34,880 nucleotides of DNA from Bryobacterales bacterium (GCA_030693045.1 JAUYBU010000078.1:1-34880), one strand, 5' to 3'; counted from the stretch's first letter, positions 5,887 through 34,880 are shown. The notes: generated from the sequence alone by a model not told the origin. A program made the numbers and translations.

Positions 5887-5908
5887 ACCTAACTATAAAC
5901 CGGGGACG

Positions 5909-6053
5909 GAGTACTCGAGCCAATTGCAAAATTCACGCCCCGCTTCCTGACGGTCGCGGCTCGGAAGCGCGCCACTGATCCGCAACTGGTTACTGAGCCG
6001 CGAGCGTCAGCGAGCGGTCGTTCAGCGAATTCTGCATTTGGCTCGGAGTACTC
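5909..6053. repeat. 145-bp inverted-repeat element (REP/MITE-like)
   Basis: The ends form an imperfect inverted repeat of about 26 bases, starting GAGTACTCGAGCC at 5909 and ending GGCTCGGAGTACTC at 6053. Inside are GGTCGCGGCTCGG and CCGCGAGCGTCAGCGAGCGG, the core of a repeat family also present at 16126, 22273 and 28237. It fills the gap between the divergent SDR and TonB-receptor genes. It codes for nothing convincing; apparent reading frames through it are by-products of the repeat. Confidence 0.75.
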
Positions 6054-6068
6054 TTTCCCCATTTTTCC

Positions 6069-6134
6069 CACGGCCCGATGGCCGTGCCATTACACCGCCG
6101 GAAGGCGGTTCTACTACACGGCCTCAAGGCCGTG
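6069..6134. repeat. Three consecutive short hairpins
   Basis: Three perfect small stem-loops follow one another: CACGGCC/GGCCGTG (6069-6086), ACCGCC/GGCGGT (6094-6109) and CACGGCC/GGCCGTG (6117-6134). Related GCACGGCCTT-type sequences recur near 32061 and 34712. They lie just before the TonB-receptor start and could act on its 5' leader, or could simply be REP-type repeats. Confidence 0.7.
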
Positions 6135-6157
6135 CCAGCGCGGTCGATGAGTAGTAC

Positions 6158-8194: not shown

Positions 8195-8216
8195 AGAGCC
8201 AAACCAGACCCGGCAC

Positions 8217-8756
8217 ATGAGGCGCCCACACTTCATCTCCTGGCTAACAGCCGCCATCCTGGCGGCGGCGCTGGGGTATGGGCAAACGCCGGCGACGGTC
8301 TCGGAAGCGCAGGTGAAAGCCGCCTTTCTGCTGAACTTCCCGAAGTTCGTGAGTTGGCCGGCCGGCAATGCGGCTCCGGGGCGGCCCTTTGTAATCGGAC
8401 TGCTCGGGCAGGACGAGGTCGGCGAAGCGGTGCGCGCGCTGGCGCAGGGTAAGAAGCTCGGCGATCGCCCGCTGGTGGTGCGCCGTTTCACCCTGGTGAG
8501 CGAAGTGGCCGAATGCGACCTGCTGTATCTGGCGGCCGGGGAAAGCAGGCGGGCGCCGGTGGTGCGCGCGGCTCTGGAGGGCCGCGGCGTGCTCACGGTG
8601 GGAGATTGGGCCTCGTTCGCGCACGAGGGAGGAATGATCGCCCTGGTCGCCGACAAGAGCCGTATCGTCTTCGTGGCCAACCCCAAGGCGGCGCAAGTAG
8701 CGGGCCTCGCCATCAGCGCCCAGTTGCTGAGCCTGGCCAAGACGGTGGAGCGTTGA
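8217..8756 (+). CDS. YfiR-like periplasmic protein (DUF4154)
   Basis: A 179-residue protein with a signal peptide (residues ~1-22, ending LGYG) and the YfiR-family pattern: [19 protein letters not shown] near the N-terminus, then [15 protein letters not shown] and a late [22 protein letters not shown] stretch interrupted by variable segments. In Pseudomonas, YfiR is a periplasmic inhibitor of the YfiN diguanylate cyclase. Here no GGDEF protein is nearby; the downstream neighbour, 4 bases away, is a membrane histidine kinase with a periplasmic loop, which is the likely partner. The tight spacing with both neighbours points to one operon. Confidence 0.85.
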
Positions 8757-8760
8757 TCCC

Positions 8761-11091: not shown

Positions 11092-11153
11092 ACCGGCGTC
11101 TCTTTTCACAGCCTGTAGGCCGTGAGACAATGGGAGCGACGGAAGGCTGAACC

Positions 11154-11519
11154 ATGGCGGCGAGAATCCCAATCGATTCACAAGCGGTTGCCAGTCTTTG
11201 CCGGCGTCGCCATATCCGGAAACTGGCCCTGTTCGGGTCCGTCCTGCGAGACGATTTCTCGGCCGCTAGCGACGTGGACGTTCTGGTGGAGTTCGACGCC
11301 GGTCACGTTCCCGGCCTGGAGTTCTTCGCGATCGAAGCCGAACTCTCCGAGCTGATGTGCCGCAAAGTCGACCTTCACACTCCCCAATCCCTGAGCCCAT
11401 TCTTCCGCGAACAGGTGCTGGCGTCGTCCGAGTTTCAGTATGTCGCACGCTCGGCGACGGCGCGCCCCTATTTCGGGGACAGGCTACGAAATCCCGAAAT
11501 TAATTTCGGGATTTCGTAG
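11154..11519 (+). CDS. MNT-type minimal nucleotidyltransferase, orphan with altered C-terminus
   Basis: A 121-residue protein with LFGSVLRDDF and SDVDVLVEF, giving the GS-x10-DxD pattern (G28, S29, D40, D42) of minimal nucleotidyltransferases. These usually act as the antitoxin partner of a HEPN (DUF86-type) toxin, modifying it with nucleotides. No HEPN gene follows. The natural end is expected after EFQYVA (~residue 99); the last ~10 residues, RNPEINFGIS, and the TAG stop are encoded by the palindrome at 11479. The gene therefore seems cut at its 3' end by the repeat, which may also have removed a partner gene. A GGAAGG ribosome site precedes the ATG. Confidence 0.75.
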   Translation: MAARIPIDSQAVASLCRRRHIRKLALFGSVLRDDFSAASDVDVLVEFDAGHVPGLEFFAIEAELSELMCRKVDLHTPQSLSPFFREQVLASSEFQYVARSATARPYFGDRLRNPEINFGIS

Positions 11520-11524
11520 CCTGT
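11479..11524. repeat. 46-bp perfect palindrome
   Basis: Two 23-base arms are exact reverse complements with no spacer, centred between 11501 and 11502 (core CGAAATTAATTTCG). The right half overlaps the start of repeat copy B at 11512, whose first bases also open the window at position 1. It encodes the tail and stop of the MNT gene. Perfect spacer-less palindromes of this size suggest a recent insertion or fold-back event. Confidence 0.95.
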
Positions 11525-11662
11525 GGTCATGATCGCATCGCGCTCACCGAAGGTGATGAAAAAGGGGGACACGCCTGTGTCTCTGGACGGGCGACGGGTT
11601 GCGTAAGATTAGCCCGGAGTGTCCCCGGGTCTCTGCTATTTTCGAGAGTGTCCCCGAAATAG
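11512..11662. repeat. 151-bp dispersed repeat, copy B
   Basis: Same length, orientation and box order as 1-151 (GGGGGACAC, then two GTGTCCCC). It ends 4 bases before the stop codon of the minus-strand c554-like gene, just as copy A ends 2 bases before its neighbour's stop. Read on the minus strand, the outer hairpin is followed by CTTTTTC, resembling a Rho-independent terminator. Confidence 0.88.
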
Positions 11663-11666
11663 ACGG

Positions 11667-12776
11667 TTACCGCGCCAGGCGGCTGATGGTGAGGAAGGTG
11701 ACGCGCTTTTCCGTTTCGGCGGTGGCCGTGGGCGAGTAGTGGTACCAGAAGGTCGCCTTGACCTGGGTCTGGACGCCCTGGGGGATGTCGAAGTAGAACG
11801 TCTCGGTGCGTTTCTCGTCCGGGGCCAGGCGCGTGTCGGAGGTCGTTTTGGCGGCCTTCACGAAGGCCAGATGCTCGCGCTCCAGGGGCGCGCCGTTCTG
11901 ATCGGCGACGGTGCGCTGGTAGACCCGCTCCTGGCGAAAGTGTTTGCCGTCGTAGGAGTCGGCCCGAAGTTCCAGCACGATCTTGCGCAACGGCGAGCCG
12001 GTCGGAACGTAATGTCCGGCCGCGGCGTTGGCGACGTCGACGGTGACCTTGAGTTTGCCACCCTCTCGGGCGGTGGAAAGCTGCGCCTTGAAGGTGCTGT
12101 TCAATTGGTCGATCGAGTGGCTGCCCGGCATCAGGTGCAGGTTGACCGTGTTGTCCGAAGATCGTTTGATCTTCGGATCGACGACATCGCCGGCCACCTT
12201 CGACATGTGGCATGATTGACACTGCTTGCCGGCCTTGGCATAGGAGCTGGCCTTCCATTCCGAGTAAGTGCTCAGAACCGCGAAGCCCTGCGCGTTGCGA
12301 TATTCGTGGCACGGCGCGCAGATGGCCGAGGAGGTGTGCACCTGGGAGAAGACCGCGCTGTGCGCGGTGGGACTGGCGCCCTTGAGAGTTCCGCTCTTGA
12401 CCAGGCCAAACTCGAGCTTCGCTCTGGGGTTGGGTCCCGTCAGCACGACCTCCCTCACCGAGTGGCAGTAGTCGCAGGTCACGCCTTCCCAACTCACTTT
12501 CTTCTGCAGCGTCAGGTCGCCGGTCTGAACCGCAATCGGAGAATGGCAACTCAGGCAGGTCTTTCGAACCGCGGCGCCCAACTCCGACTCGGCGCTCTCC
12601 AGCGCGTCCTGAAACAGACGGCTCTCCATCGAGCGCGCGTGAGCCGAACTCTTCCACGCTGCGTGGATCGCGCGGTGGCACCGCCCGCAGAACTCGGCGC
12701 TGCCGATCAACTCAACTCCGGCGCCGGAAGCGGACATGGCGAGCGCGCCGGCGAGCAAGCACGAAGCGAAAGACAT
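11667..12776 (-). CDS. Pentaheme cytochrome c, c554-like
   Basis: A 369-residue exported cytochrome with a signal peptide (~1-19). Five CxxCH heme sites are at 30, 74, 101, 153 and 186, in the spacing and context (SAEFCGRCH, WEGVTCDYCH, CQSCHM) typical of cytochrome c554-like proteins. Residues ~205-369 carry no heme and look like a beta-sandwich domain (GHYVPTGSPLRKIVLELRA). Enzymatic activity cannot be assigned; an electron carrier or small-molecule reductase in the periplasm is plausible. It is the last gene of the minus-strand electron-transfer run, 3 bases after the nonaheme gene. Confidence 0.85.
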   Translation of the reverse strand: MSFASCLLAGALAMSASGAGVELIGSAEFCGRCHRAIHAAWKSSAHARSMESRLFQDALESAESELGAAVRKTCLSCHSPIAVQTGDLTLQKKVSWEGVTCDYCHSVREVVLTGPNPRAKLEFGLVKSGTLKGASPTAHSAVFSQVHTSSAICAPCHEYRNAQGFAVLSTYSEWKASSYAKAGKQCQSCHMSKVAGDVVDPKIKRSSDNTVNLHLMPGSHSIDQLNSTFKAQLSTAREGGKLKVTVDVANAAAGHYVPTGSPLRKIVLELRADSYDGKHFRQERVYQRTVADQNGAPLEREHLAFVKAAKTTSDTRLAPDEKRTETFYFDIPQGVQTQVKATFWYHYSPTATAETEKRVTFLTISRLAR

Positions 12777-12779
12777 GGA

Positions 12780-14027
12780 TCAACTCCCACCGGTCCCGGA
12801 ACGCGGTCCGCGATGGTTCTCGATAGACCGGATCGCCAGCCACAAGCCGGCCATGGTGGCCAGAATGGCGGCCAGGGAAATGGACAGACCGAAGCGCCGG
12901 AAAGTGCGCTCCTTCAAGGCCGCCACTCCGGCCGCATACGTCTTGCCGGCAACCACCAGCCCGGCCTGGACGGGCTTTGCGACGGCGGCGGTCTGAAAGG
13001 CGTGGACCGCCAGCCGGGCTTTGATCATGTTCTCGCGGCCATCCATGAGCTGAAGCTGCGCTTCCGAGACCTCCATTCCCGACTGCCGGGCCCGTTCCAG
13101 GATCTCTTCCGAGCGACCCAGGGCCGCATCCAGTTCCTTGATCCGGTTCGCGATCTCGGCCGCGGCCCGGCCACCCGCCGAATCCGCCTCGTGACACTGG
13201 GCGCACACGCTCCCGTCGCCGGAAAGCATCTTCACGGCAGGCTTCTCGATCTTGTGCTTGCCGTGGCAGACGATGCACCCGGCGGCTCCCATCGCGGTGA
13301 AAACCGGCTGGTGAGGGCTCTTTTTGTACAGTTCCTCGAATAGCACGTGGCAAGTGCCGCAGACCGCGGCCACGGAGTTGACTTGCGGCGGCGTCGCGCC
13401 GTGGTTGCCGTGGCAGGAGGCGCAACTGGGCGCCGACAGGTCTCCGCGCTTGGCCAGCGCGGTCCAGTGCACGCTCTGACGGTACTCGTCGAACTGGGTG
13501 TGCTCGATTTTGTACTTCGACATCCGCCCGGCGTCGGCATGGCAGCGGGCGCAGGTCTCCGGCAAACGGAGCGGATGGACCGGCGAGAGCGCGTGGCGAA
13601 CCTCGCGAATGTCGTGGACGCCGTGGCAATCCACGCAATTGGCCACCGCGGCGTCGCCGGCCGCCAGGCGCTTGCCGTGCACGCTGGTGCGGTACTGAGC
13701 GAGCTGGTCGACGCGTTGCTGGGGTTTGAACTTGTGGATCAGATTGGAGTCGCTGTGGCAGCGCGCGCACAAGTCGGGGACCGCGGTTCGCGCGATCTTG
13801 CCCTTGTAGCCGCGGGCGCGGCTCATCGACACGGCCGGGTCGCCGGAGGCGGCGTCGCCGCCGTGGCAGTCGGTGCATCCGAACCCGCGCGTCGAATGGA
13901 TGTCGATCTTGAATGCCAGGGCCGGCTTCTGGAGACGCCCTTCGAGCGCCGCGTGGCACTCCAGGCAGGAGTTTCCGGCCGCGGCGAGCGGGGCGAGAAA
14001 CAGCAGGAACAAAGCGGCGGTTCTCAT
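12780..14027 (-). CDS. Nonaheme cytochrome c with C-terminal membrane anchor
   Basis: A 415-residue protein with a signal peptide (~1-17) and nine CxxCH sites at 21, 51, 87, 131, 159, 202, 223, 251 and 275. After the heme domain comes a helical, probably coiled-coil stretch (~287-345) and one transmembrane segment (~380-400), leaving a short cytoplasmic tail. The heme domain should sit in the periplasm next to the cytochrome b. ATG 14027 overlaps the cytochrome b stop as ATGA, so translation is probably coupled. I do not recognise a named enzyme; a quinol-to-cytochrome relay is the simplest reading. Confidence 0.85.
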
Positions 14028-15118
14028 TTCCAGTACCCCAGGGCGGAAAACGTCGCCAGGTAGGCTATCAACACCACCGCCGTTCCCGTCAGCAGGCGGG
14101 TGCGCTCGCCGCCGCTGCGATCGTTCGCCCAGAACGGCAGCGTGACCCACCAGGCGGCCAGCAGGCCGAAGCCGAGCAATCCGAGCAATTCGCCCTCGAA
14201 CATCCAGACGTGGCTCGGAATCAGTTTCAGGGTGTAGAACGGCGCCAGAAAATACCATTCCGGGCGGATGCCCGCCGGCGCCGGGGCGAAAGGATCCGCT
14301 TTCTCGCCCAGCTCCCAGGGAAAGATGGCCGCCAGCATGCCCAGCACGGCCAGGGCGGCGTACCAGGCCATCAGCTCGCGGAGAAAGAAATTCGGGAAAA
14401 ACGGCATCTCCGGCGCCGGACCGCCGGAAGCGCGGTTCTGCTCCTCCACGCGCGGCGGCGAACTGATGCCGAAGCTTTGCACCAGGAACAGGTGCACCAG
14501 CAGCAGGCCCGTGGTCAGGGCCGGCAGCACCGCCACGTGGAACCCGAAGAACCGGGTCAGCGTGGCGCCTCCGACATCGTCGCCCCCGCGCAGAAACCGG
14601 GCCAGCGTGGGGCCGATCAGCGGCACGGCGGCGGCCATGTCGGTGCCCACCTTGGTGGCGAAGTAGGAGATCGTGTTCCAGGGCAGCAGGTAGCCGCTGA
14701 AGCCGAATCCCAGCGCCAGCCCCAGCAGACCCACGCCGCTCAGCCAGGTGATTTCGCGCGGCCTGCGGTAGGACCGCAGGAACACCACGCTGAACATGTG
14801 GATGAAGGCCGCCAGGATCATCAGGTTGCCCGACCAACTGTGAATGGACCGGATCAGCCACCCGAACTCGACTCGCGTGACGATGAACTGAACGCTCTCG
14901 TATGCCTCGGCGGCCGAGGGCCGGTAGTACAGCAGCAGAAGGATGCCGGTGGCTACCTGGATGCCAAACAGAAACAGCGTGATTCCGCCGAAGTAATACC
15001 ACATGGTGGCGGAGTGCTTGGGCACCCTCTTGTGCGCAACAAAGGATTGGATGGCGTCAAACGCCAGCCGTTCTTCGAGCCACCCGATCAGGGGCGGCTT
15101 ACCCTTAAGTGAAGCCAT
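14024..15118 (-). CDS. Cytochrome b (b6-like, fused with subunit IV region)
   Basis: A 364-residue membrane protein, the quinol-oxidising core of a Rieske/cytochrome b complex. Heme-b ligands are H93/H107 and H194/H209; the second pair is separated by 14 residues, as in b6-type proteins. The Qo-site motif PEWYF is at 286-290, so the subunit IV part is fused to the b6 part. About seven to eight transmembrane helices are visible. It starts 15 bases after the Rieske gene and overlaps the nonaheme gene by 4 bases. No cytochrome c1 or f gene is present; one of the neighbouring multiheme proteins may fill that role. Confidence 0.93.
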
Positions 15119-15133
15119 AAGCTACCTTCCGGC

Positions 15134-15565
15134 CTAGCCGCGGCGAGACAACACTACTTCATCCCCGCGGACACGCACCGTGAATTCCTCCAGCGGCCGC
15201 GGCGGCGGGCCGGAAACGACTTTCCCGTTCAGGTCGTAAAAGCCGTTGTGGCAGGCGCACCAGATCTGCCGGCTGGACTCCTGGTATTGAACCGTGCAAT
15301 TCAGATGCGTGCAAACCCCGGAGAACGACCGCCACTCGTTGTCGCCCAGCCGGACCAGCAAGGCGGGCGTGCTTCCGAACTTCACAATCTTGGCGGCATT
15401 GACCTTGAACTCCTGGACCTTGCCGGCGCTAACTTCGTTGACCGTCGCTTCCGCAATCAGCGGGGGCGCCATGAACCGGAGTACCGGATAGAGGAACGCC
15501 GCAATCGATGCGGTGACGCCTCCGCCCAGCAACCAACTCGCGAGACCTCGTCTTGTCTGGGGCAT
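15134..15565 (-). CDS. Rieske [2Fe-2S] protein
   Basis: A 143-residue protein with an N-terminal transmembrane anchor (~11-30) preceded by TRRGLASWL, which could be a Tat-type signal anchor. The Rieske ligands are in CTHLNC (85-90) and CACHNG (103-108), with the extra cysteines forming the usual disulfide. It takes electrons from quinol at the cytochrome b Qo site. ATG 15565 is preferred because GGTAGG lies upstream at suitable spacing; a TTG at 15586 would add 7 residues. Confidence 0.92.
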   Translation of the reverse strand: MPQTRRGLASWLLGGGVTASIAAFLYPVLRFMAPPLIAEATVNEVSAGKVQEFKVNAAKIVKFGSTPALLVRLGDNEWRSFSGVCTHLNCTVQYQESSRQIWCACHNGFYDLNGKVVSGPPPRPLEEFTVRVRGDEVVLSRRG

Positions 15566-15610
15566 AACTGACCTACCGAGGAACAATTATGCCATAGCCC
15601 GGAATGAAAT

Positions 15611-15694: not shown

Positions 15695-16021
15695 TTATTT
15701 CTTCAATGTACGCAGGAAGGCGATCCCGTCGGCTATTTCCGCGTCCGTCAGACCCTTGGACACAACCTTGTGCTTCGGCAAGCCGGTGATCTTCACTTTG
15801 ATCTCGGCGTCCTTCATCGCCTGGAACTTGGCCGAGCTGAAGGCCATCATGCCGGGGTTCGCCTTCACCAGCGCCGCCGTCGGAGTGCCGTCCGCGCCAT
15901 GGCAGACCTTGCACTTCTTTGTGTAGAGATCCTTGCCGGCGTCGGCCTCGGCGCCGAACAGGACGGCGACATTCAAGAACAGCACGAAGCTGAGTAAAAT
16001 CGCGATGCTTACTTTGTTCAT
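15695..16021 (-). CDS. Monoheme cytochrome c
   Basis: A 108-residue periplasmic class I cytochrome with a signal peptide (~1-24) and one heme site, CKVCH (37-41, followed by GADGTP). A methionine pair in NPGMMAFSS is a candidate for the sixth iron ligand. AAGGAG lies before the ATG. It leads the Rieske/cytochrome b block, and a candidate sigma-54 promoter is 35 bases upstream. It is likely the soluble or loosely bound electron acceptor of that complex. Confidence 0.88.
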   Translation of the reverse strand: MNKVSIAILLSFVLFLNVAVLFGAEADAGKDLYTKKCKVCHGADGTPTAALVKANPGMMAFSSAKFQAMKDAEIKVKITGLPKHKVVSKGLTDAEIADGIAFLRTLKK

Positions 16022-16454: not shown

Positions 16455-17798
16455 TTACTGCACCGGTTCGGTGCCGGGCATGTAGGATCGTACGCGCTCG
16501 ATCACTTCCGGCAACGAGTGTTCCCTGCCCTCCTGCACTTCCCAGATCGAGATGATCGGAAAGAACCTGGTAAACAGCATGTACAGAAGGATGAACGTGG
16601 CGCCGAACCCCAGCGTGATGGCAATCTCGATCCAAGTGGGTGAATACAGACCCGTGGCCCAGGGCAGGCGCGGCTGAGACATCGTCGGCACCACGATGGT
16701 AAGGCGCTCGAGCCACATCCCGATGATGACCGATATCGACGCGACCACCGTGCCGGCGACGGTGCGCGTTCGCCGCCACGCCAGAATTGGGAAGGGGATC
16801 ACAAAGCAGGTCGCGAACATGGTCCAGAACGCAAGAGCGTAACGGCCCGTGAGCTTTGAATAGAAGACCGTCAGGTGCGACGGATCGCCGCCGTAAAACG
16901 TCGTAAGGTACTCGGCGAAAGTGAAGTAAAACCACAGCAGCGACATTACCATCAGCAGCAGGCCCAGGTGGTTGAAGTGAACCGGCTTGAGGTAGTCGTG
17001 CAGGAAATAGATGCGGCGGATCAGCGCCATGGCGATGATAAGGGCGGCGATCCCGGAGAAGATGGCGCCCACCACGAAGTAAGGTCCGAAGATCGCGGAG
17101 TGCCACCCCGGCTGAACGGTCATGGCGAAGACCCAGGAAACCACCGTGTGCACCGAGACCGCGATCGGAATCACGAGAACGGCCATCACGGCAATGGCGC
17201 GGTCCAGCCGCCGCTTCTGTTTTTCAGTCCCCCGCCATCCGGCCGCCAGAAAACGGTAGAACCAGGAGGCGCCGCCGGTGCGGTCGCGCAGAATGGCTAT
17301 GTCGGGAATGAGGGGCAGGTAGAGGTAGATCGTGCTGGCCATCAGGTAGACGCTGATGCTGCACACGTCCCACAGCAGGGGAGAGCGAAAGTTGGGGTGC
17401 CGCAGGACATTCAACGCGCGGTCCGGCCGGCCCAGATCCATGATGATGCTGCCGACTCCGAAGAAAAGCACGAGCACCGTGATGACCTCGGCGGCGCGCG
17501 TGATCGAGCGCCGCCACTCGGCGTGGCAGAGGCGCAGAATGGCCGAGATCAGCGTGCCCGCGTGGCTGATGCCGATGAAGAAGACGAAGTTGGTGATGTA
17601 GACGCCCCAGTAGACCGGCACATTCAGCCCGGTGACCCCCAGGCCCCGCCGCAGTTGTTCCACCCAGGCGAAGAAAGCGAGCGCGCTGAAGGCCAGCAGG
17701 GCCGCCGCCAGGTAGTAGAAAGAGCCGCGCGCGGCCACAATGGGCTGGATCAGGACAGCGTCGTCCCGGCTTATCTCAAGTTTGGTTTCCACGTCCAC
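16455..17798 (-). CDS. NrfD/ActC-like quinone-binding membrane subunit
   Basis: A 447-residue polytopic membrane protein with about ten helices. The segment SHAGTLISAILRL followed by EWRRSITRAAE and MDLGRP is characteristic of NrfD-family subunits, closest in pattern to the long ActC/QrcD type of alternative complex III and Qrc. These bind quinone and exchange electrons with an Fe-S partner. GTG 17798 is chosen because GGAG precedes it and it overlaps the ferredoxin gene by 23 bases; an upstream in-frame start at 17894 would lie deep inside that gene. It is the last gene of the molybdopterin/Fe-S module. Its stop codon sits at the junction with the isomerase fragment. Confidence 0.9.
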   Translation of the reverse strand: MDVETKLEISRDDAVLIQPIVAARGSFYYLAAALLAFSALAFFAWVEQLRRGLGVTGLNVPVYWGVYITNFVFFIGISHAGTLISAILRLCHAEWRRSITRAAEVITVLVLFFGVGSIIMDLGRPDRALNVLRHPNFRSPLLWDVCSISVYLMASTIYLYLPLIPDIAILRDRTGGASWFYRFLAAGWRGTEKQKRRLDRAIAVMAVLVIPIAVSVHTVVSWVFAMTVQPGWHSAIFGPYFVVGAIFSGIAALIIAMALIRRIYFLHDYLKPVHFNHLGLLLMVMSLLWFYFTFAEYLTTFYGGDPSHLTVFYSKLTGRYALAFWTMFATCFVIPFPILAWRRTRTVAGTVVASISVIIGMWLERLTIVVPTMSQPRLPWATGLYSPTWIEIAITLGFGATFILLYMLFTRFFPIISIWEVQEGREHSLPEVIERVRSYMPGTEPVQ

Positions 17799-18486
17799 CG
17801 CTCCATTCTCCTTCCGCCAGGTGAAACACCTTCGGTTTGGTGCCCAGGTCCTCCAGAAGACGAAATGCCCGGGGATTGCGCGCCAGTTGGGCAACCGCGC
17901 TGGCTGGGTCGTCGAGATCCCCGAAGGTGATCGCGCCCGAGGGACACACCTCGGCGCAGGCGGGCAAGTAGTCTCCTTCGGCCAAGGGCCGCTTGGCGGC
18001 CTTGGCTTCCTCGCGCGCCTGCATCAGGCGGTGGTGGCACAAGGTACACTTCTCGACCACGCCTTTGGGCCGAACCGAGACATCCGGATTGAGAGCCAGC
18101 GCCAGGTCGCCGGGGAACTCGGGTTTGTACCAATTGAACATGCGCCGCGTATAAGGGCAGCCCGTGGTGCAGTAACGGCAGCCGATGCAGCGCGGATAGA
18201 TCTGGTGCACCGTGCCTTCGGCATTGATGCCGGTGGCCTTCACCGGGCAGACCAGGATGCAGGGGGGGTTGTCGCAGTGCAGGCAGGGCAAGGGCACCAG
18301 GCGCATGGAGAGGCGCGGGTACTCGCCCTCCAGTTCGGGCAGCAGGCTGATCCACGACAGGATGCGGCCGCTCCTGGCTTCCTCCGGCGGCACGCACGGG
18401 ATATTGTTCTCGCTCTGGCAAGCTACCACACACGCCTGGCAAGCGCTGCATTTCGCAAGATCGATAGCCATTCCCCAACGAGCCAT
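17776..18486 (-). CDS. Four-cluster [4Fe-4S] ferredoxin subunit (PsrB/ActB2-like)
   Basis: A 236-residue Fe-S protein with 16 ligand cysteines: 13, 16, 19, 23; 68, 71, 76, 80; 100, 103, 106, 110; and 147, 150, 177, 181. This is the four-cubane pattern of PsrB/DmsB/NrfC subunits. It should wire the molybdopterin-family subunit to the NrfD membrane subunit. It has no signal peptide and would be co-exported with the Tat-bearing partner. It lies 16 bases after the molybdopterin-family gene and overlaps the NrfD gene. Confidence 0.94.
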   Translation of the reverse strand: MARWGMAIDLAKCSACQACVVACQSENNIPCVPPEEARSGRILSWISLLPELEGEYPRLSMRLVPLPCLHCDNPPCILVCPVKATGINAEGTVHQIYPRCIGCRYCTTGCPYTRRMFNWYKPEFPGDLALALNPDVSVRPKGVVEKCTLCHHRLMQAREEAKAAKRPLAEGDYLPACAEVCPSGAITFGDLDDPASAVAQLARNPRAFRLLEDLGTKPKVFHLAEGEWSGGRGNQT

Positions 18487-18502: not shown

Positions 18503-20911
18503 TCAGCTTGGATACACCCTCACGTACGTGCCCGCGCTTTGCGGCAGACCCGCCACCGGTTCGCGCCGGTCTTCCAGCAGGCTCAACGGATTGACCCCGC
18601 CGCGGCTCAGTTCGCTGCCAGCCGTGTGGCCGTAGCCCAGAGGCAGGTGTACGACGCCGGGACGCACTCCCGCGTATACGCGCGCGCGCACCTGGGCACG
18701 CCCCCGACGCGACTCGATCCACACGATGGCGCCGTCGGGAATGTGCAGCTTGTGCGCCGTTTCCGGATCCATCTCGAGCCAGCTTTCCCAGGCCTCGAAC
18801 AGATGCGAGCCGGCGATCTGTTGCAGGTACGGCAGGTGCCCGCCTTCGCCGCCGGCCAGCGGCAGCACTTCGATCGGGAGCAACAGGAGCGGGTAGCCCG
18901 GCGGCGGGTCGGCGATGGGCGTCTGGTGCGGCAGGAACAGGCGGTCGTCATCCGGCTTCATGCCGGCATTGCGCGCAAACTCGGGATGAGCCGCGGCCCA
19001 GTGCGCCAGCGTCTGGGAGTAGAACTCGAAGCGTCCGGAAGGGGTCTTCAGCACCCGCTGCCACTCGCCGTGGGAGTAAGTGGGGTCCCACCAGCCTCCC
19101 TGCTTCTGCATCTGTTCCCACAGCTCGTCGGCGGTGGCATAGGTGGGCGACCACCAGCCGGAGCGGTCCAGAAGCCGGTTCCAGGCGTCTTCCATGCTGG
19201 TGCTGAAGACCGACCCGCTCTGGGCGGCAAACAGTTCACCGGCCTGGGCATGCACGTACTCCTCGAAATTCGCCGCCGGAAGAGCCTGCGCCGCCGCCCC
19301 GCCAAGCTGGTGCGCCAGTTCCAGAATCACATCCGCCGGCTGGCGCGCCTGGTAGCGCGGCGGAACCACCGGCGCGGCGATCGATTGCACGGCAGAGGGG
19401 AAGGTGGGCGGGGAGGTGACGGCCTGCCACTTTTCGAGGTCCGTTTGCGCGGGCAGGACCAGGTCGGCTCGCATCGCGCTCTCGTCCAGGAACACGGCGA
19501 AGCTGGCCACGAACGGCGTCTGATCGAGACATTGCTCGAAGGCCGTCCCGTTGGGCATCGAGAAAACCGGGTTGACTTCGTTCAGGATGATCGCCTGAAC
19601 CGGGTACGGGCGGCCGGCGAGGATGGCTCGCGCCGCCTCGGCCAGGTGGTGTCCCGGAAAGACGCTCGAGGGCGACTGGTCGATCCGGGGCCATGCGGTG
19701 ACGCTGCCCGGCGGCGGGGACGCGGGCATCACGGCCTGAATCAGCACGCCTCCCGGCGCGTCGATGCTTCCTACCAGCGCGTTCAGGCTATGCACCGCCA
19801 TGGCGCTGTAGGGGTTCCCCGGCAGAGTGCTGGTTTGCGAATCTCCCAGCGCCACCGCGGGACGGTGATTGCCGAACTCGCGTGCCAGCCGGAGGATGGT
19901 CTCTTCGGGGACGCCGGTCAGCGCCGCCACGTCCTGGAGGCGGTATTCGCTCAACACCAGCGAGCGGAACCCCTGGTGCGCCCTGCCGGCGTCGTCGTGC
20001 CAGTCCTCGAACCCGAAGGTGTGCTCGCGGACGAAGGCCGCATCGTAAAGGCCCTCGGTGATCAGGACGTAGGCCATGCCCAGGGCCAGGGCGGCCTCGG
20101 CGCCCGGCCGCAGCGGCACCCACTCGTCGGCGCGGGATGCGGTCAGCGAGAAGCGAGGTTCAACCTGCACGAACTTCGTCCGGCGGCCCGAGGACGGGTC
20201 GCGCCAGCGCCCAAACGCGCGCATGATGCTGGCCGGCGAACCCCACCCCTCCAGCAGGTTGACTCCGAAGCTGAGAACGTACTGCGCACGGTCCCAATCG
20301 TAGGCCACCGGCTGCGTGACGCCTTGCTGCAAGTGCACGGCGGTCTTCAGAGCGTCCTGACCCGATGGGAGCACCAGGTAGTTTGGCGATCCGTAGGCGG
20401 TCATGAAGCGCTGCATCAGGCGGCTGGACAGGCTGTGCCGGTTGCGCTCCACCAACGCCACCGTGTGCGCCTGTCCCGCGTCGCGAAGCTTGCGGAGCTG
20501 CCCGGTCAGCGTGGCGATGGCCTCGTCCCACGAAATCTGCATCCAGCGGGGAGACTTGCGCGTTCCGGTATTCCTCATCGGCGCGCGCAAGCGATCCGGA
20601 TGGTAGAGCGTTTGCAGTTCGGCCACGCCCTTGGGGCAAAGTCCCCCCTGGTTGACCGGATGGAGCGGATTACCCTGGACCTTTACCGCCCGCGCGCCGA
20701 CCTTGCGCACGCGCAGGCCGCAACCCGCCGGGCACTGCGTGCATACCCCCAGCGCCCAGCTTTCCGGCCCGCCCGGCACCTGCATCTGTTCGGCGGCCAG
20801 CGCCTCGTTGAAGCGGCTGATGGCTTCCATGCCGATGCCCGAGGCCGCCATTCCAAGGGCGCCGCCTCCGGCGAACCGGACAAAATCCCTGCGACCGACT
20901 TTGAAACTCAT
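18503..20911 (-). CDS. Molybdopterin-family oxidoreductase subunit, Tat-exported
   Basis: An 802-residue member of the DMSO-reductase superfamily. The twin-arginine signal GRRDFVRFAGGGALG is at 6-20. A [4Fe-4S] motif follows with C57, C60, C64 and C92 (CX2CX3CX27C). Domain signatures continue (YGSPN, DRAQYVLSFGVNLLEGW, WDEAIATL), and a C-terminal cap domain is present. At the place where related enzymes carry the Cys or Ser that binds molybdenum, the sequence reads LPSGQD (182-186), with Gln185 where I would expect the ligand; the subunit may lack metal, as reported for ActB of alternative complex III and QrcB. ATG 20911 overlaps the previous stop as ATGA and has GGAGGG upstream. Function in quinol oxidation or quinone reduction is inferred from neighbours. 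Confidence 0.88.
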   Translation of the reverse strand: MSFKVGRRDFVRFAGGGALGMAASGIGMEAISRFNEALAAEQMQVPGGPESWALGVCTQCPAGCGLRVRKVGARAVKVQGNPLHPVNQGGLCPKGVAELQTLYHPDRLRAPMRNTGTRKSPRWMQISWDEAIATLTGQLRKLRDAGQAHTVALVERNRHSLSSRLMQRFMTAYGSPNYLVLPSGQDALKTAVHLQQGVTQPVAYDWDRAQYVLSFGVNLLEGWGSPASIMRAFGRWRDPSSGRRTKFVQVEPRFSLTASRADEWVPLRPGAEAALALGMAYVLITEGLYDAAFVREHTFGFEDWHDDAGRAHQGFRSLVLSEYRLQDVAALTGVPEETILRLAREFGNHRPAVALGDSQTSTLPGNPYSAMAVHSLNALVGSIDAPGGVLIQAVMPASPPPGSVTAWPRIDQSPSSVFPGHHLAEAARAILAGRPYPVQAIILNEVNPVFSMPNGTAFEQCLDQTPFVASFAVFLDESAMRADLVLPAQTDLEKWQAVTSPPTFPSAVQSIAAPVVPPRYQARQPADVILELAHQLGGAAAQALPAANFEEYVHAQAGELFAAQSGSVFSTSMEDAWNRLLDRSGWWSPTYATADELWEQMQKQGGWWDPTYSHGEWQRVLKTPSGRFEFYSQTLAHWAAAHPEFARNAGMKPDDDRLFLPHQTPIADPPPGYPLLLLPIEVLPLAGGEGGHLPYLQQIAGSHLFEAWESWLEMDPETAHKLHIPDGAIVWIESRRGRAQVRARVYAGVRPGVVHLPLGYGHTAGSELSRGGVNPLSLLEDRREPVAGLPQSAGTYVRVYPS

Positions 20912-22110
20912 GGTTTCCCTCCGGCGCGCTGCCGCGGGCGCTGTCCCGCGCCGAGGAACTCCATCAGATCGGCGACCTCCGCGGGAAGGAAGCGAGGCCA
21001 GGGGATCTGCCGCCGCTCCATCGTGCCAAGCATCAGCGGCCCGTGGTTCCAGAGGGCGGCGGCGAGCCGGACCGGGGAAGCCGCGCCGCGCCACGCGGCC
21101 AGGCTGGGACCGCGCGCCGCGCCGGCACCCGGGGAATGGCAGCTCCCGCAGCCTTTCTCCTCAAAAACGCGCCGGCCGCGGTCGGCGTTGCCGCTGGCCT
21201 CGAAATAACGCTGGGTGAACAGGTGCGCGATCAGGTCGGCCATCTCCTGGTTGGAAAACTGGGGCGGCGCCATCTTGTGCGCCTGCATGCTGCTCCACAT
21301 GGCCGGAGCGTGGTTCCACATCAGCGTGGCGAACTGGCCGAGAGTGCGCGGCAGGGGCCGGACTCCCAGATCCGGCCCTCCTTTGCCGCCGGCGCCGCGA
21401 AAGGAATGGCACGTCGCGCATCCCTTCTGTTCAAACAGCCGGGCGCCCGCCTCCGCATTCGCCAGGCGCGGGTTCGCGCGCGTCTTCGGGACGCCTGCCA
21501 GCGTGCGGATGTATGCGATGATGTCGGTCATATCGTTGTCTTTGAACTCGGGCCAGCTCAGCCCGCGCGCGGCCATCAGCGATCGCATGGCCAGGCCGTG
21601 GTTCCACATGGCCTGAATCCAGCTCACCGGGTTGCGGTGGCTGGTCCAGGTTCTCAGGTCCGGTCCGGCGCCCCGGCCCGCAGAGGAGACCGCGTGGCAT
21701 TCCAGGCACTTCTTGTCGCTGAGCAGCCTGCGGCCCCGCTCCGGGTCGCCCGGTTCGTCCAGGCTCCGGACGGAGTAGAGAAACGCGAACAGGTTGGTCA
21801 TTTCCGGGTCGCTGAAACGGGGCAGGTTCAGCCGCTCGACGCGCATTTTATTCCACATGGCGGGCGCGTGGTTCCACATCGCCGCGACGGCCTCGGCGGC
21901 GCTCAGGTGGCCCGCGGGCACGCGCGCCAGGTCGGGGGCGGTGCGGCCGCCCTCGCCCAGAACCGCGTGGCAGCGGGCGCAGCCTTTGTCGAGAAAGACC
22001 CGCATGCCGGCTTTGGGATCCCCGGGCACGAAGTAGGCCCCGCGGCTCACCGTCTCGGCCCCCAGCAGCGGCAGCGCGGAGAGGATCAGAATCAAAACGC
22101 CGGTCTTCAT
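20908..22110 (-). CDS. Tetraheme cytochrome c with repeated MWNH modules (periplasmic)
   Basis: A 400-residue protein made of four tandem class I cytochrome units of roughly 90-95 residues after a signal peptide (~1-18). CxxCH sites are at 44, 135, 231 and 321. Each unit also carries a MWNHAPAM-like motif about 34 residues after the heme (78, 168, 264, and LWNH at 353), followed by a WPEF/MTDIIAYI-like helix. The Met or His in that motif may serve as distal heme ligand. It is paralogous to the anchored protein at 22894. Its stop overlaps the molybdopterin-family start, so it is likely a subunit or direct partner of that complex. Confidence 0.88.
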   Translation of the reverse strand: MKTGVLILILSALPLLGAETVSRGAYFVPGDPKAGMRVFLDKGCARCHAVLGEGGRTAPDLARVPAGHLSAAEAVAAMWNHAPAMWNKMRVERLNLPRFSDPEMTNLFAFLYSVRSLDEPGDPERGRRLLSDKKCLECHAVSSAGRGAGPDLRTWTSHRNPVSWIQAMWNHGLAMRSLMAARGLSWPEFKDNDMTDIIAYIRTLAGVPKTRANPRLANAEAGARLFEQKGCATCHSFRGAGGKGGPDLGVRPLPRTLGQFATLMWNHAPAMWSSMQAHKMAPPQFSNQEMADLIAHLFTQRYFEASGNADRGRRVFEEKGCGSCHSPGAGAARGPSLAAWRGAASPVRLAAALWNHGPLMLGTMERRQIPWPRFLPAEVADLMEFLGAGQRPRQRAGGKP

Positions 22111-22163
22111 CCCGCCAGGTCTCCGACCGTGCGATTGGGTTCTTCCGCTTGCTGAGAAGCTGT

Positions 22164-22246
22164 AAGAGAATCCTGGGGGACACGCCTGTGGGCGCTTCAA
22201 AGTGTTGTTTCCGTGAAGCCAGCCCGGAGTGTCCCCGGATTCTCTT
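22164..22246. repeat. GGGGACAC hairpin repeat, third locus
   Basis: Arms of ~18-20 bases beginning AAGAGAATCC (22164) and ending GGATTCTCTT (22246) enclose GGGGGACACGCCTG and AGCCCGGAGTGTCCCC, the same boxes as in the repeats at 1 and 11512. It lies between two cytochrome genes of the minus-strand operon. The left 22117-22155 stretch copies part of the 16126 element. Confidence 0.8.
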
Positions 22247-22272
22247 GCGGCTTGGCCCAGAGGGCACCCCGC

Positions 22273-22344
22273 GCGCGGCTCGGAATCGTTACCGAGCCGC
22301 GACTCAGAATCGTTACCGAGCCGCGACCGTGAGGGAGCGGAACC
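22273..22344. repeat. GCGGCTCGGAATCG hairpin repeat
   Basis: GCGGCTCGG and CCGAGCCGC (22275-22300) form a perfect stem, and a partial second copy continues to GAGGGAGCGGAACC. It is the same family as the cores at 5909, 16126 and 28237. Together with the neighbouring element it fills the gap between the stop at 22358 and the start at 22110. Confidence 0.8.
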
Positions 22345-22357
22345 AGGGGTCAAGGCA

Positions 22358-22894
22358 CTAGCGATGGCAGTCATTGCACTCCGTCCCGCCTCGGTTGTTT
22401 TCGTGACACTGGGTGCAGGCGTCCATGGTGAATTCACGGAAGGGCCTGGCCGGCGGCGCCGTGGCTTTCTCCATGGGGCCATGGCAGATGGCGCAGGCAA
22501 TTTTGGCCAGCACGACGTGACGCCGGTGCGAGAAGAACACGTGCGCCGGCACCTGCGTCAGCCGGACCCAGGCAAGCTCCTTCCCCGCCGCCGCCAGATC
22601 GCGAACTTTCCGCTCCTCCGCGCTCGCGGTCAGCGCCGTCGCGTGGCAGTTCATGCACGTTTCCAGCGCCGGCAACGTTGCGCGCGCCTGGGTTTCGACT
22701 CCCGTGTGGCAGTCCGTGCAGGACATCCCGTTGGCCAGATGCTTGGCGTGATTGAAAGCGATGGGTTGCGAGGCCGCGTGGTTCCGGCCGGCCGCGGAGA
22801 ATACCACAGCGCCCACGAGAAAACACAGGACAAAGCCTCCTCCTATGGTCCAGCGAGCCGCAAGCGGCGGGGGCATCGGGCTCCAATCCGCCAT
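22358..22894 (-). CDS. Pentaheme c7/class III-type cytochrome, membrane-anchored (ActA/QrcA-like)
   Basis: A 178-residue protein with an N-terminal transmembrane anchor (~17-35) and five CxxCH sites at 59, 80, 134, 160 and 173; it ends one residue after the last heme. Histidines in FNHAKH (47-52) and FSHRRH (121-126) before the hemes are typical distal ligands of class III cytochromes. Size, anchor and heme number match ActA of alternative complex III, and the following molybdopterin-family, ferredoxin and NrfD genes complete that resemblance. Its ATG overlaps the upstream gene's TAA (TAATG), indicating coupled translation. Confidence 0.9.
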   Translation of the reverse strand: MADWSPMPPPLAARWTIGGGFVLCFLVGAVVFSAAGRNHAASQPIAFNHAKHLANGMSCTDCHTGVETQARATLPALETCMNCHATALTASAEERKVRDLAAAGKELAWVRLTQVPAHVFFSHRRHVVLAKIACAICHGPMEKATAPPARPFREFTMDACTQCHENNRGGTECNDCHR

Positions 22895-24123
22895 TAGCGC
22901 CGCCCCTCAACGGGAGAATTGAGAAAGCTCACCAGGTTGCCGATGTCGCCTTCGTTGAGGGTGGGCCACGCAATCTTGAGCTCGCGCGTGCGCCGGTACA
23001 TGCTGGGACCGTGACTCCAGAGCGCGGTTGCCAGCACCACGGTCGAATAGGTCCGGCCTCGGATTCTGAGAGCGGGGCCCAAGCGCGAGCCCAGGGCCGT
23101 GCCTCCGTGGCACCGGCTGCAATCGCGCTCGGTAAACACCGTCTCGCCGACCTGCGCCGACCCCATCGGTTCGAAGTAGCGAATGCTGGCGAGAAACGCG
23201 ACCAGGTCCGCGATCTGCTGACCGTTAAAGGTGGGGCGCGGGATGTTTTGATTTGACTGGGCTTTCCACATTTCCGGCGAATGGTTCCACATCAAGGCGG
23301 CGAATTGAACGACGGTCAGCGGGAGCGGGCGGTTGGGGCCCAGCTCCGGTCCGATGTGTCCTCCCTTGCCGCTCACGGCGTGGCAGACGATGCAGGATTT
23401 GCTTTGAAATAGCGCCCAGCCGTGTTTCGGGTTGGCCGGCAGCAAAGTTGTTTCGCGCCGGGGCCCGCGCGAGACCTCGCGAATGTAGGCCAGCAGATCG
23501 TTCATATCGCGTCCTTCGAATCTCGGCCACGCAAGCCCGCTTTCCTGCATCCGCGCCTCCATGATGGGGGCGTGGTTCCACATCGCCTGGGTCCACACGA
23601 TGGGCGTGTCCACGCCGGCGACCGAGGCCAGGTCCGGTCCTCGGTCGCCTCCGGTTCCATCCACTGCGTGGCAGCGGACGCACCCCTTCGTCCGGAGCAA
23701 CTGGTAGCCCCGCTCTTTGTCGCCGAACTCGTCCAGGTACCTGGCGGTGTAGAGGAAAGCGAAGATGTGGGCCGTTTCCTCCTGGTTGAGGTCGGGGAAC
23801 TTCAATTTCTCGGCGCGCAGGCGCTCCCACATTCGCGGCGCGCAGTTCCACATGGCCGACACAAGCTGGCTCATGCTCGACTGCGGCAAGCTGGCAAAGC
23901 CCAGGTCGGGAGCGCTCTTGCCGCCGTACCCGTTGACCGGATGGCAGTGAGCGCAGCCCTTCTTCTCAAAGAAGAGCGTGGCGCCCAAGTGCGGGTCGCC
24001 GACCCAGAGATTGGTCCATCGAGCGTTTGAGTGTCTGTGCTCCCAGAACAGCACACCCACCAGCAGCGCCAAGGCTGCAACCGCCATTACTCCCCAGATG
24101 AACAGTTGCTTTTTCGACGTCAT
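22894..24123 (-). CDS. Tetraheme cytochrome c with repeated MWNH modules (membrane-anchored)
   Basis: A 409-residue protein with an N-terminal membrane anchor (~8-27) and four tandem heme units. CxxCH sites are at 57, 148, 244 and 335, with MWNC (91), MWNH (181, 278) and LWSH (368) about 34 residues behind each. It is a paralogue of the periplasmic tetraheme protein two genes downstream. ATG 24123 is preferred because GAGGG lies 8 bases before it; ATG 24138 would add five residues. It is the first gene of the molybdopterin/NrfD block, with a candidate sigma-54 promoter about 37 bases upstream. Confidence 0.88.
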   Translation of the reverse strand: MTSKKQLFIWGVMAVAALALLVGVLFWEHRHSNARWTNLWVGDPHLGATLFFEKKGCAHCHPVNGYGGKSAPDLGFASLPQSSMSQLVSAMWNCAPRMWERLRAEKLKFPDLNQEETAHIFAFLYTARYLDEFGDKERGYQLLRTKGCVRCHAVDGTGGDRGPDLASVAGVDTPIVWTQAMWNHAPIMEARMQESGLAWPRFEGRDMNDLLAYIREVSRGPRRETTLLPANPKHGWALFQSKSCIVCHAVSGKGGHIGPELGPNRPLPLTVVQFAALMWNHSPEMWKAQSNQNIPRPTFNGQQIADLVAFLASIRYFEPMGSAQVGETVFTERDCSRCHGGTALGSRLGPALRIRGRTYSTVVLATALWSHGPSMYRRTRELKIAWPTLNEGDIGNLVSFLNSPVEGRR

Positions 24124-24170
24124 TCCGGCTGCCCTCATTTGCTTGAGATCGTTGCCGCTGGAACTGTGAA

Positions 24171-24186
24171 AGCACGTCAGCGGCCA
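24171..24186 (-). promoter_or_regulatory. Candidate sigma-54 promoter
   Basis: The minus strand reads TGGCCGCTGACGTGCT: TGGC and TGCT with GG and GC exactly 10 bases apart. The predicted start near 24160 gives a leader of about 37 bases for the first cytochrome of the block. A symmetric site ~100 bases further upstream could bind the NtrC-like regulator encoded next door. Confidence 0.4.
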
Positions 24187-24263
24187 AAGCCGCCGCGCAC
24201 CGTTCCCATGAACAAAGCAATCGAGTTGGAACAGGCTGCGGGCAATTGCGGCCGGGCCGGCAG

Positions 24264-24298
24264 TGTCCGACAGACGTCCGATGTACGAGAATCGGACA
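24264..24298. promoter_or_regulatory. Candidate activator binding site
   Basis: TGTCCGA (24264-24270) and TCGGACA (24292-24298) are an exact inverted pair, with a further GTCCGAT at 24276 pairing with ATCGGAC at 24291. It lies roughly 105-138 bases upstream of the predicted sigma-54 start, a usual distance for enhancer sites of NtrC-type activators. Function is inferred. Confidence 0.4.
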
Positions 24299-24517
24299 GA
24301 ATTCAGAAGTCAGAAGTCAGAAGTCAGAAGTCGGAAGTCGGAATGAGGACGCCAGCGACGAGATTCTGTGCTTGCGGACTATCGTCTCCATCGCCGCGAA
24401 CATTGCGGAAGGGTTTTTGCAGCACCAAGCCAGTTGCCCGAAGAGGTCGGCAAGCTGTGGGAGGCCTTTCCGCAGGCCATTCTGAATTCTGTCTTCTGAA
24501 TTCTGTCTTCTGCTTCC
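24297..24517 (+). pseudogene. Decayed four-helix-bundle (S23/IVP-like) element
   Basis: Seven 7-base units of the CAGAAGT type run from 24297 to 24345. An inverted version (CTGAATTCTGTCTTCTG) closes the element at 24480-24513, just before the response-regulator stop codon. Between them the plus strand encodes RTIVSIAANIAEGF, the signature helix of four-helix-bundle proteins related to the 23S rRNA intervening-sequence protein, then loses resemblance. No complete gene of the usual ~120 residues remains. It appears to be the remnant of a small mobile cassette. Confidence 0.65.
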
Positions 24518-25881
<1,364 letters not shown>

Positions 25882-25885
<4 letters not shown>

Positions 25886-27201
25886 GGATGCGCCTGCTCG
25901 AGCGCCGGCCGGGGTTGGCAGCACGGCAGTTCGACGACCGCCGTGGTGCCCCGGTTGGGAGCGCTGTCCAGACGCAGGGAGCCGCCATGTTCGAGAACGA
26001 TGTTCTGCGCGATCGACAGGCCCAGCCCGGTGCCCCCGCCCGGCCCCTTGGTGGTGAAGAACGGCTCGAAAACACGCGGCAGATCGGCGGCCGCGATGCC
26101 GGGACCGTCGTCCGATATCCGGATCTCAATGCATTCGGGAGAAGACTTCCGGCATTGGATGGAGATGGAGCCCTGGCTGGCGATGGCGTCCAGAGCGTTG
26201 CTGAGCAGCACCGACAACAGCGCCTCGAGGAGGTTGCGGTCCGCCATGACCCGTTCGCCGGAAGCCGAGTCCGGGTCGAGCGTCACGCGCGCCCGCTTGG
26301 CCTCCATCGCCGGGGCCAGAAAATTCACGACGCCGCGGATCAGCGGGCCGACTTCCTCGGGCTGCTTGCGGGTCGCCGGACGCCGGCTGAACTGGAGCAA
26401 GCGCTCGACGAACTGCTTGCAGAAACCCATGCCGGCCTCCAGGCGCTCCAGATCCGCCGCCACCTGGTCCCGCGCGGGGCGCTCGCGCATCATCTGCACG
26501 CGAAGCAACATGGCTGCCAGCGGCGTGTTCAAATGGTGGGCCGTGCCCGCCGCCATGCGACCCATGGTGGTCAGCTTCTCCAGTTCCACAAGTCTCTCCC
26601 GAAGACGGACGCGCTCCCGGATGTCCTCGGTGACTTCCAGGAAAAGATGCTGCGCGGCGGCTTCCCGGAACGGCAGCAGGCTTAGTTGGACCTCGAACGC
26701 CGTGCCCATCTTGTCACGGCGCAAAGTCTCGATATCGAGGAGCGACTCGCCCGCCCGAACCCGGTCGAGAAAGCTCCGCAGTTCCTCCTGCTTCCCGGCC
26801 GGGACGGTCGGCAGAGGCTTTCCCAGCACCTCCGCCTTGCTGAAGCCGTAAAGCCGCTCGGCGGTCGCGTTCCACTCGCTGACCCGCAAGGACGCATCGT
26901 ACAGGGCGACCGCGCCGGGAGAAACTTCCAGCAGACCCCGGTATCGCTCCCGGGACCGGCGGAGTTCTTCTTCGCTGCGACGCCGCTGGGAAATCACGTA
27001 CCAGGCGGCCCAAAACGCCAAGAACAGGGAGGAAGCGATCCCCCGCGTGATGTAGAGGTAATGCAGCGTGACGTAGTCGGCGTGACGGAAGAATCGGTTC
27101 TCCGCCACTTCCCAGACCGCGAACGTAATGGCGGCGATACTGATGCAGGAGAGTATCAGCGTGACCCAGAGCCACCGTTGTTCCTGCATGCCGCGGTGCA
27201 C
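25882..27201 (-). CDS. PAS-containing membrane histidine kinase
   Basis: A 439-residue kinase with two N-terminal transmembrane helices (~10-30 and ~52-70), a PAS domain (~85-195), a HisKA domain and an ATPase domain (DDGPGI, GTGLGLSI). The H-box reads AAGTAHHLNTPLAAM, so the phospho-acceptor H222 is followed by His where most kinases have Glu or Asp. The periplasmic part is only ~20 residues, so the signal is probably sensed in the membrane or by the PAS domain, for example redox or quinone state; this is inference. GTG 27201 and ATG 27189 are both possible starts; GGGGAG lies upstream but at poor spacing to either. Confidence 0.92.
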
Positions 27202-27281: not shown

Positions 27282-27590
27282 TCAGCGGCCTTTGGGCAGC
27301 CCCCGGACAAACGTCACCAGTTGCTTGACCTCGTCTTTGGACAGGCGGCCCTTTTGACTCGGCATCTTGTCCTTTCCGTTTTCGATGACCGCGAGCAGTT
27401 GCGGATCGGACTGCCCCTGGGTGGTCTGGGCGCGCAGGTCGCGCAGCCCCAGTTTCTTGCCCATCGGCGTATTGCCGCTCCCGTCGGTGCCGTGACACAT
27501 GGTGCACTTGGTCTTGTAAAGGTCCGCCGCGGGAGCCGCGGCCAGCGGCAAACCAGCCGCAATCGCGAAGATCATGAGGATTGGTTTCAT
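27282..27590 (-). CDS. Small monoheme cytochrome c (c6/c555-like)
   Basis: A 102-residue periplasmic cytochrome with a signal peptide (~1-19), heme site CTMCHG (29-34) followed by TDGSGNTPMG, and a methionine ligand in KDKMPSQKG (~74-82). It resembles small class I carriers that shuttle between a quinol-oxidising complex and an oxidase. It is the first gene of the minus-strand electron-transfer and regulator region. A good sigma-54 promoter candidate lies 34 bases before the ATG. Confidence 0.9.
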   Translation of the reverse strand: MKPILMIFAIAAGLPLAAAPAADLYKTKCTMCHGTDGSGNTPMGKKLGLRDLRAQTTQGQSDPQLLAVIENGKDKMPSQKGRLSKDEVKQLVTFVRGLPKGR

Positions 27591-34744: not shown

Positions 34745-34880
34745 GTAGAGTCGAGGATGGGCGCGGGTACTGACGCCGGAGGCCGCCCCGTTTCCCATCC
34801 CCGCTCATCAAACCGGACGTGCCCATTTCGAGCATCCGGCTTTCCGACCGGCTTCATCGCAGGCTCACGTACGCGCGGCC
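34745..34880 (-). mobile_element. Group II intron, 3' end (domains V-VI), truncated by window edge
   Basis: On the minus strand, bases 34841-34811 form a domain V-like hairpin: lower stem AGCCGGA/TCCGGTT with the AGC triad, a two-base CG bulge, and an upper stem closing on a GAAA-containing loop. A second stem with GGATGGG/CCCATCC (34754-34799 region) fits domain VI, and the intron probably ends at ...CGACTCTAC near 34745. The stretch before domain V reads GRAYVSLR then TGA, possibly the last residues of the intron-encoded reverse transcriptase. The rest lies beyond the window. Confidence 0.75.

Follow-up and report, generated by a model that had tools for sequence, protein, structure and literature searches.

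Alternative complex III (ACIII, ActABCDEF) and the Qrc complex (QrcABCD) are homologous and operate in opposite directions, Qrc working towards menaquinone reduction. Their cytochrome partners differ as well: in ACIII the partner ActE is a one-heme protein, and in Qrc a class III tetraheme cytochrome c3, TpIc3, is the electron donor (PMC13059093). Our study concerns a 34,880-nucleotide stretch of DNA from a Bryobacterales bacterium (GCA_030693045.1, JAUYBU010000078.1:1-34880; hereafter the window), which contains two tetraheme cytochrome genes, named TetA and TetB here, amid genes for a pentaheme cytochrome, a molybdopterin-like subunit, a four-cluster Fe-S subunit and an NrfD-type membrane subunit (Table 1). 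With a probability of roughly 60%, we read TetA and TetB as dedicated electron carriers serving a quinone:cytochrome c oxidoreductase that faces the periplasm and belongs to the ACIII/Qrc superfamily. A preliminary description of the window had proposed a special cytochrome class, perhaps with an unusual distal heme ligand and making linear heme wires; the special class is supported by our results and the ligand is plausible, and the quinone-oxidoreductase context had been missed.

Compared with ACIII, the cluster is alike in its ActA-like pentaheme protein, its molybdopterin-like and four-cluster Fe-S parts, its ActC-like NrfD protein and its class I cytochrome c partner; the best matches in the PDB are ActA chains for the pentaheme protein (87.8 bits) and ActC (6f0k_C, 253.5 bits) for NrfD. 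It differs in that the molybdopterin-like and Fe-S parts are separate genes, whereas ActB is fused, in the presence of only one NrfD, in the lack of ActD and ActF among the annotated cluster genes, and in having two four-heme proteins in the place of ActE. The quinone site of ActC includes H139, D169 and D253 (PMC8076601); the equivalents in the window's NrfD are D, D and V, so that two of the three residues are changed, and its relatives also have D at the first position and V or I at the third (31 of 32 in each case).

The likeness to QrcABCD lies in the gene order (cytochrome, molybdopterin-like, Fe-S, NrfD), in the tetraheme nature of the partner, and in the best NCBIfam models, which are QrcA, QrcB and QrcC for the first three subunits, although every score falls below its equivalog cut-off. 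The partner here is, however, of class I and not a class III c3, and NrfD is far from QrcD (44.7/570 bits; the DsrP model gives 119.5 bits). The Mo-ligand residue of the molybdopterin-like subunit is unconserved in the clade, which parallels the lack of a redox cofactor in QrcB (PMC13059093); all four FS0 cysteines are present in the window, whereas they are incomplete in the highest-scoring QrcB (locus L135). Counting CxxCH motifs gives five in the window's pentaheme protein and also five in the QrcA of L135, versus six hemes for QrcA. Alignment with the QrcC and QrcD of L135 revealed that the equivalent of the quinone-site residue QrcC Y113, which is essential (PMC13059093), is kept in the Fe-S protein within CRYC, and that those of the quinone-site residues QrcD S138, D120, Y150 and R358 are kept in NrfD, the essential S138 and Y150 being found in 31 of 32 NrfD relatives; the essential proton-path residues D70 and Y110 are not kept, in a distant pair whose register is uncertain. 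Because the window's subunits depart from Qrc and from ACIII alike in some of the features compared, the complex would stand outside both families, and the best reading of the neighbouring genes is an ACIII/Qrc-type complex that would constitute an undescribed third lineage of the superfamily.

Each of the two tetraheme proteins holds four units of about 90 residues, and all eight units have both the CxxCH heme motif (at residues 62, 153, 249 and 340 of TetA and 44, 135, 231 and 321 of TetB) and a W[N/S][H/C]xxxM motif, located 33-34 residues after the first Cys of CxxCH in TetA and 32-34 in TetB. The successive motifs read MWNC, MWNH, MWNH and LWSH in TetA, and three times MWNH followed by LWNH in TetB; Pfam PF00034 matches all eight units, in four stretches per protein. 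TetA, which may start at 24123 (409 aa) or 24138 (414 aa), possesses an N-terminal hydrophobic segment (residues 7-25, mean hydropathy 2.66) with no obvious cleavage site, and TetB a signal-like hydrophobic segment at residues 3-21. The pentaheme gene sits between them, sharing an ATGA overlap with TetA, and an overlap of the same kind joins the stop of TetB to the molybdopterin-family gene (20911..18503). These observations bear out the preliminary description of two proteins with four such units each, one anchored and the other exported, whose genes flank the pentaheme gene and precede the molybdopterin-family gene.

TetA and TetB are 42% identical overall. Domains at the same position share 46% (first), 46% (second), 43% (third) and 35% (fourth) identity, and the non-corresponding pairs between the two proteins 21-42%; because same-position domains resemble each other most, the pair arose by duplication of one entire gene. 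The genome also contains a third tetraheme paralog (G000:C163:4971-6047; L003, L005 4923-6137), 35% identical to TetB, in which two units have lost the Met of the motif along with part of the helix after it.

Relatives were collected from Acidobacteriota (Solibacteraceae, Bryobacterales, Thermoanaerobaculia and others) and from further metagenome-assembled genomes (MAGs) labelled Rokubacteria, Gemmatimonadetes, Phycisphaerales, Lentisphaerae and Deltaproteobacteria, together with whole genomes. Across about 270 units the motif is strongly conserved: 98% have W, 82% have N, 94% have H and 95% have Met at the fourth position past the His. By comparison, the classical distal-Met position, just ahead of the C-terminal PxF, is occupied mostly by W, R, Y or P, and by Met in 0 of 176 units. 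In the fetched loci, WxHxxxM follows at the correct spacing after 232 of 284 CxxCH motifs of the family and after 6 of 811 outside it, five of these six from an unrelated decaheme protein; this difference rules out a chance origin of the motif. Being restricted to the family in the loci examined, where the loop Met is also gone, the motif likewise does not mark ordinary class I cytochromes, in which the preliminary description had conceded that it might prove common. Unrelated decahemes adjoining tetraheme genes (L011 4094-6169, L012 8705-9724, L020 3708-4943) carry a look-alike of WNHxPxM, FLWEHPPVM.

Like other class I cytochromes (PF00034; for example actinobacterial QcrC and cytochrome c551), the family has CxxCH, the fold, P.L after the heme motif and the final helix; it differs from them by the lack of Met in the loop before the last helix, by WNHxPxM in an extended third helix and by four units per chain. 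Class III cytochrome c3 (TpIc3) has a fold with closely packed CxxCH motifs, which the Tet proteins do not share, their class I domains being about 90 residues apart. No named Pfam or NCBIfam family specific to the tetraheme proteins was matched in our profile scans, and our search of the literature, which covered few subscription journals, turned up no account of the motif or of the complex. The special class proposed earlier thus takes shape as a distinct family present in several phyla, whose members are class I cytochromes that string four units together and carry what is probably a displaced distal-ligand motif.

The AlphaFold2 model of TetB (predicted local distance difference test score, pLDDT, 83.5) places the motif mid-way along one 21-residue helix in all four domains, a single-unit model (pLDDT 89) agrees with this placement, and the best Foldseek matches of the latter model are all class I cytochromes in the PDB (probability 0.97-1.00, template modelling score about 0.5). 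Because the classical position never holds Met in the 176 units, the most probable source of the distal ligand is WNHxxxM within helix 3; to this extent the unusual ligand suggested by the preliminary description is plausible. Conservation failed to choose between the motif's Met and His, both near 95%. A helical wheel, on which the inward face of the motif helix was computed without the motif residues, puts that face at 274-283 degrees; the motif residues lie at 240 (Met), 200 (His) and 0 (Trp), and a small residue (A, G or S in 89%) precedes the motif Met by one helix turn. Because Met is the nearer of the two to the inward face and has this small residue one turn earlier, we favour it, with some caution, as the distal ligand, His and Trp lying beside the heme. 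The alternative that the His of WNH is the ligand, which would make the hemes bis-His ligated and low in potential within a class I fold and leave a structural role to the Met one turn later, seems rather doubtful. Although His is found in 94% of the roughly 270 units, shares one side of the helix with Met through the i/i+4 spacing, and persists in all but one of the Met-less units (about 11 units keep His without Met, and 1 clearly lacks both), about 13 units with an intact Met have C, K, D, R, S, N, A, Q or P in place of the His, TetA domain 1 among them, and the His points some 75-80 degrees off the inward face, versus about 35-40 degrees for Met.

We measured the linkage between the tetraheme genes and the complex in 396 sampled Acidobacteriota genomes, starting from NrfD and independently of the tetraheme, with at least 549 bits defining a close NrfD. 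A tetraheme gene lies within 7 kb of the close NrfD in 25 of 27 genomes, and one is found anywhere in 6 of the 369 genomes without a close NrfD. Among loci found through the tetraheme gene, two gene orders recur, namely kinase-regulator-TetA-pentaheme-TetB-molybdopterin-like-Fe-S-NrfD and pentaheme-molybdopterin-like-Fe-S-NrfD-tetraheme, and similar orders occur in MAGs labelled Acidobacteriota, Rokubacteria, Gemmatimonadetes, Phycisphaerales and Lentisphaerae. A midpoint-rooted tree of the molybdopterin-like subunit separates the loci with a tetraheme gene, which had been picked through that gene, from Desulfobacterota-type Qrc, and places the tetraheme-free locus L151 among the former. Tetraheme genes are also found where the complex is missing, beside Rieske, cytochrome b and nonaheme genes (L078, L080) or beside cytochrome b and Rieske genes (L023), and elsewhere next to another NrfD/Fe-S pair with a decaheme (L011-L014, L020). 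Given these further neighbours of the tetraheme gene, its product is probably a shared periplasmic carrier, or link, for several quinone complexes. The Rieske, cytochrome b and nonaheme genes themselves form a recurring block (window 12780-15577, L030, L078, L080, L086), which in L086 also holds a c554-like pentaheme.

In the mechanism that we propose, electrons would pass between the quinone site (NrfD/Fe-S), the Fe-S clusters, the pentaheme protein, the anchored TetA together with the mobile TetB, and further cytochromes. Each Tet heme would be His/Met ligated, the Met of WNHxPxM coming one turn after the conserved His, and the His and Trp of the motif would flank the heme. The usual direction would be menaquinol oxidation at the NrfD/Fe-S site, since ActC is the nearest match of the membrane subunit. 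The main rival is the reverse, Qrc-like direction, in which periplasmic donors would reduce the tetrahemes and these the menaquinone pool. We consider it a tentative possibility: it agrees with the Qrc models found for three subunits, with the tetraheme donor of Qrc, and with the presence of dsrA in the window's genome, qrcABCD having been assigned in a sulfate-reducing Terriglobia MAG (PMC10564751). It has against it the sub-cut-off scores, an NrfD nearer to ActC (253 bits) than to QrcD, the missing proton-path D70 and Y110, and the restriction of dsrA to 6 of 31 tetraheme-bearing genomes. That the tetrahemes instead belong to an extracellular electron conduit with nearby multihemes is quite unlikely, despite the nona-, penta- and decaheme neighbours in the window and its relatives, since TetA is held by its N-terminal helix and no porin or outer-membrane conduit gene appears among the annotated cluster genes, although no search was aimed at such genes. 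It is very unlikely that the QrcB-like subunit is a working molybdoenzyme whose cytochromes serve a specific substrate: its best PDB matches are ArrA and PsrA/thiosulfate reductase and the FS0 cysteines are kept, but the Mo-binding residue is unconserved and the best curated model is QrcB.

It is important to consider the points that weigh against our reading of TetA and TetB as carriers of a menaquinol-oxidizing complex. The direction of electron flow is taken from similarity, and the physical association of the Tet proteins with the complex from gene linkage. Two genomes with a close NrfD (G002 and G032) have no tetraheme gene, and the L151 locus, which belongs to the clade, lacks one as well. 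As for the hemes, none of the Foldseek matches reaches an E-value below 0.001, and the units without the motif Met that retain His, about 11 of some 270, count against a Met ligand. The L151 locus (5342-14534, in a genome of the phylum of L034) consists of pentaheme, molybdopterin-like, Fe-S and NrfD genes, directly after which come genes for a small cytochrome c, a Rieske protein and cytochrome b. A broader proposal, that several phyla share a quinone oxidoreductase lineage beside ACIII and Qrc with a built-in class I tetraheme subunit, in which the His and Met of helix 3 would be alternative ligands that set or switch the potential, is in our estimate unlikely.

Regarding sulfur metabolism, a dsrA gene above the family cut-off (592.5 bits) is present in the window's own genome (G000:C246:5869-7041), and for this reason the organism may reduce or oxidise sulfur compounds. 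Across the sampled genomes dsrA occurs in 6 of 31 tetraheme-bearing genomes and in 26 of 365 others (p = 0.03, ignoring kinship), so that the link of the tetrahemes with sulfate reduction is weak; because only 6 of the tetraheme-bearing genomes have dsrA, sulfate reduction is not required.

Table 1. Features of the window around the tetraheme genes (positions from the first nucleotide; paired values are score/cut-off).
Feature	Position	Strand	Basis
Pentaheme c554/ExtKL-like cytochrome	11667..12776	-	NCBIfam ExtKL 81.2/250 bits; Pfam PF13435
Nonaheme c7/c3-type cytochrome, C-terminal hydrophobic segment	12780..14027	-	Heme motifs, Pfam, hydropathy
Cytochrome b (b6/petB type)	14024..15118	-	Profile scans
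Rieske [2Fe-2S] protein	15134..15577	-	Pfam
Small monoheme class I cytochrome c	15695..16021	-	Pfam
NrfD-type quinone-reactive membrane subunit, ActC-like	16455..17801	-	PDB ActC 6f0k_C 253.5 bits
Four-cluster Fe-S subunit, QrcC-like	17776..18486	-	NCBIfam QrcC 287.7/400 bits
Molybdopterin-oxidoreductase-like subunit, QrcB-like, Tat-type RRDF motif	18503..20911	-	NCBIfam QrcB 338.8/440 bits
TetB, exported tetraheme cytochrome, four class I domains	20908..22110	-	400 aa; sequence, Pfam, hydropathy, AlphaFold2
Pentaheme c7-type cytochrome, N-terminal anchor, ActA/QrcA-like	22358..22894	-	5 CxxCH; NCBIfam QrcA 89.5/180 bits
TetA, membrane-anchored tetraheme cytochrome, four class I domains	22894..24123	-	Sequence, Pfam, hydropathy
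Sigma-54-type response regulator adjoining TetA	24518..25924	-	Pfam; loci of relatives
PAS histidine kinase, partner of the regulator	25882..27201	-	Pfam; loci of relatives
Small monoheme cytochrome c upstream of the kinase	27282..27590	-	Pfam

A sigma-54-type regulator adjoins the tetraheme gene in many relatives too. No sigma-54 promoter with at most two mismatches was found upstream of TetA in positions 24139-24517. The gap between regulator and TetA contains a 28-nt inverted repeat (24295-24322 and 24480-24507, 93% complementary, 157 nt between the arms), which encloses a 79-aa open reading frame without a Pfam match. At the end of the contig, positions 34745-34844 (-) match a group II intron family of Rfam with 43.3 bits, the gathering score being 40.

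A lineage that combines an ActC-like membrane part, Qrc-like peripheral parts and a tetraheme of its own would help to explain how direction and partner have evolved in this superfamily. It occurs in Acidobacteriota, some of them with dsrA, and in other uncultured groups whose respiration is poorly known. Its heme domains exemplify class I cytochromes in which the distal ligand has seemingly shifted to a helix, and the genes beside those of the Tet proteins suggest that these serve as carriers for a little-studied membrane complex that may exchange electrons with quinones in soil and sediment bacteria.

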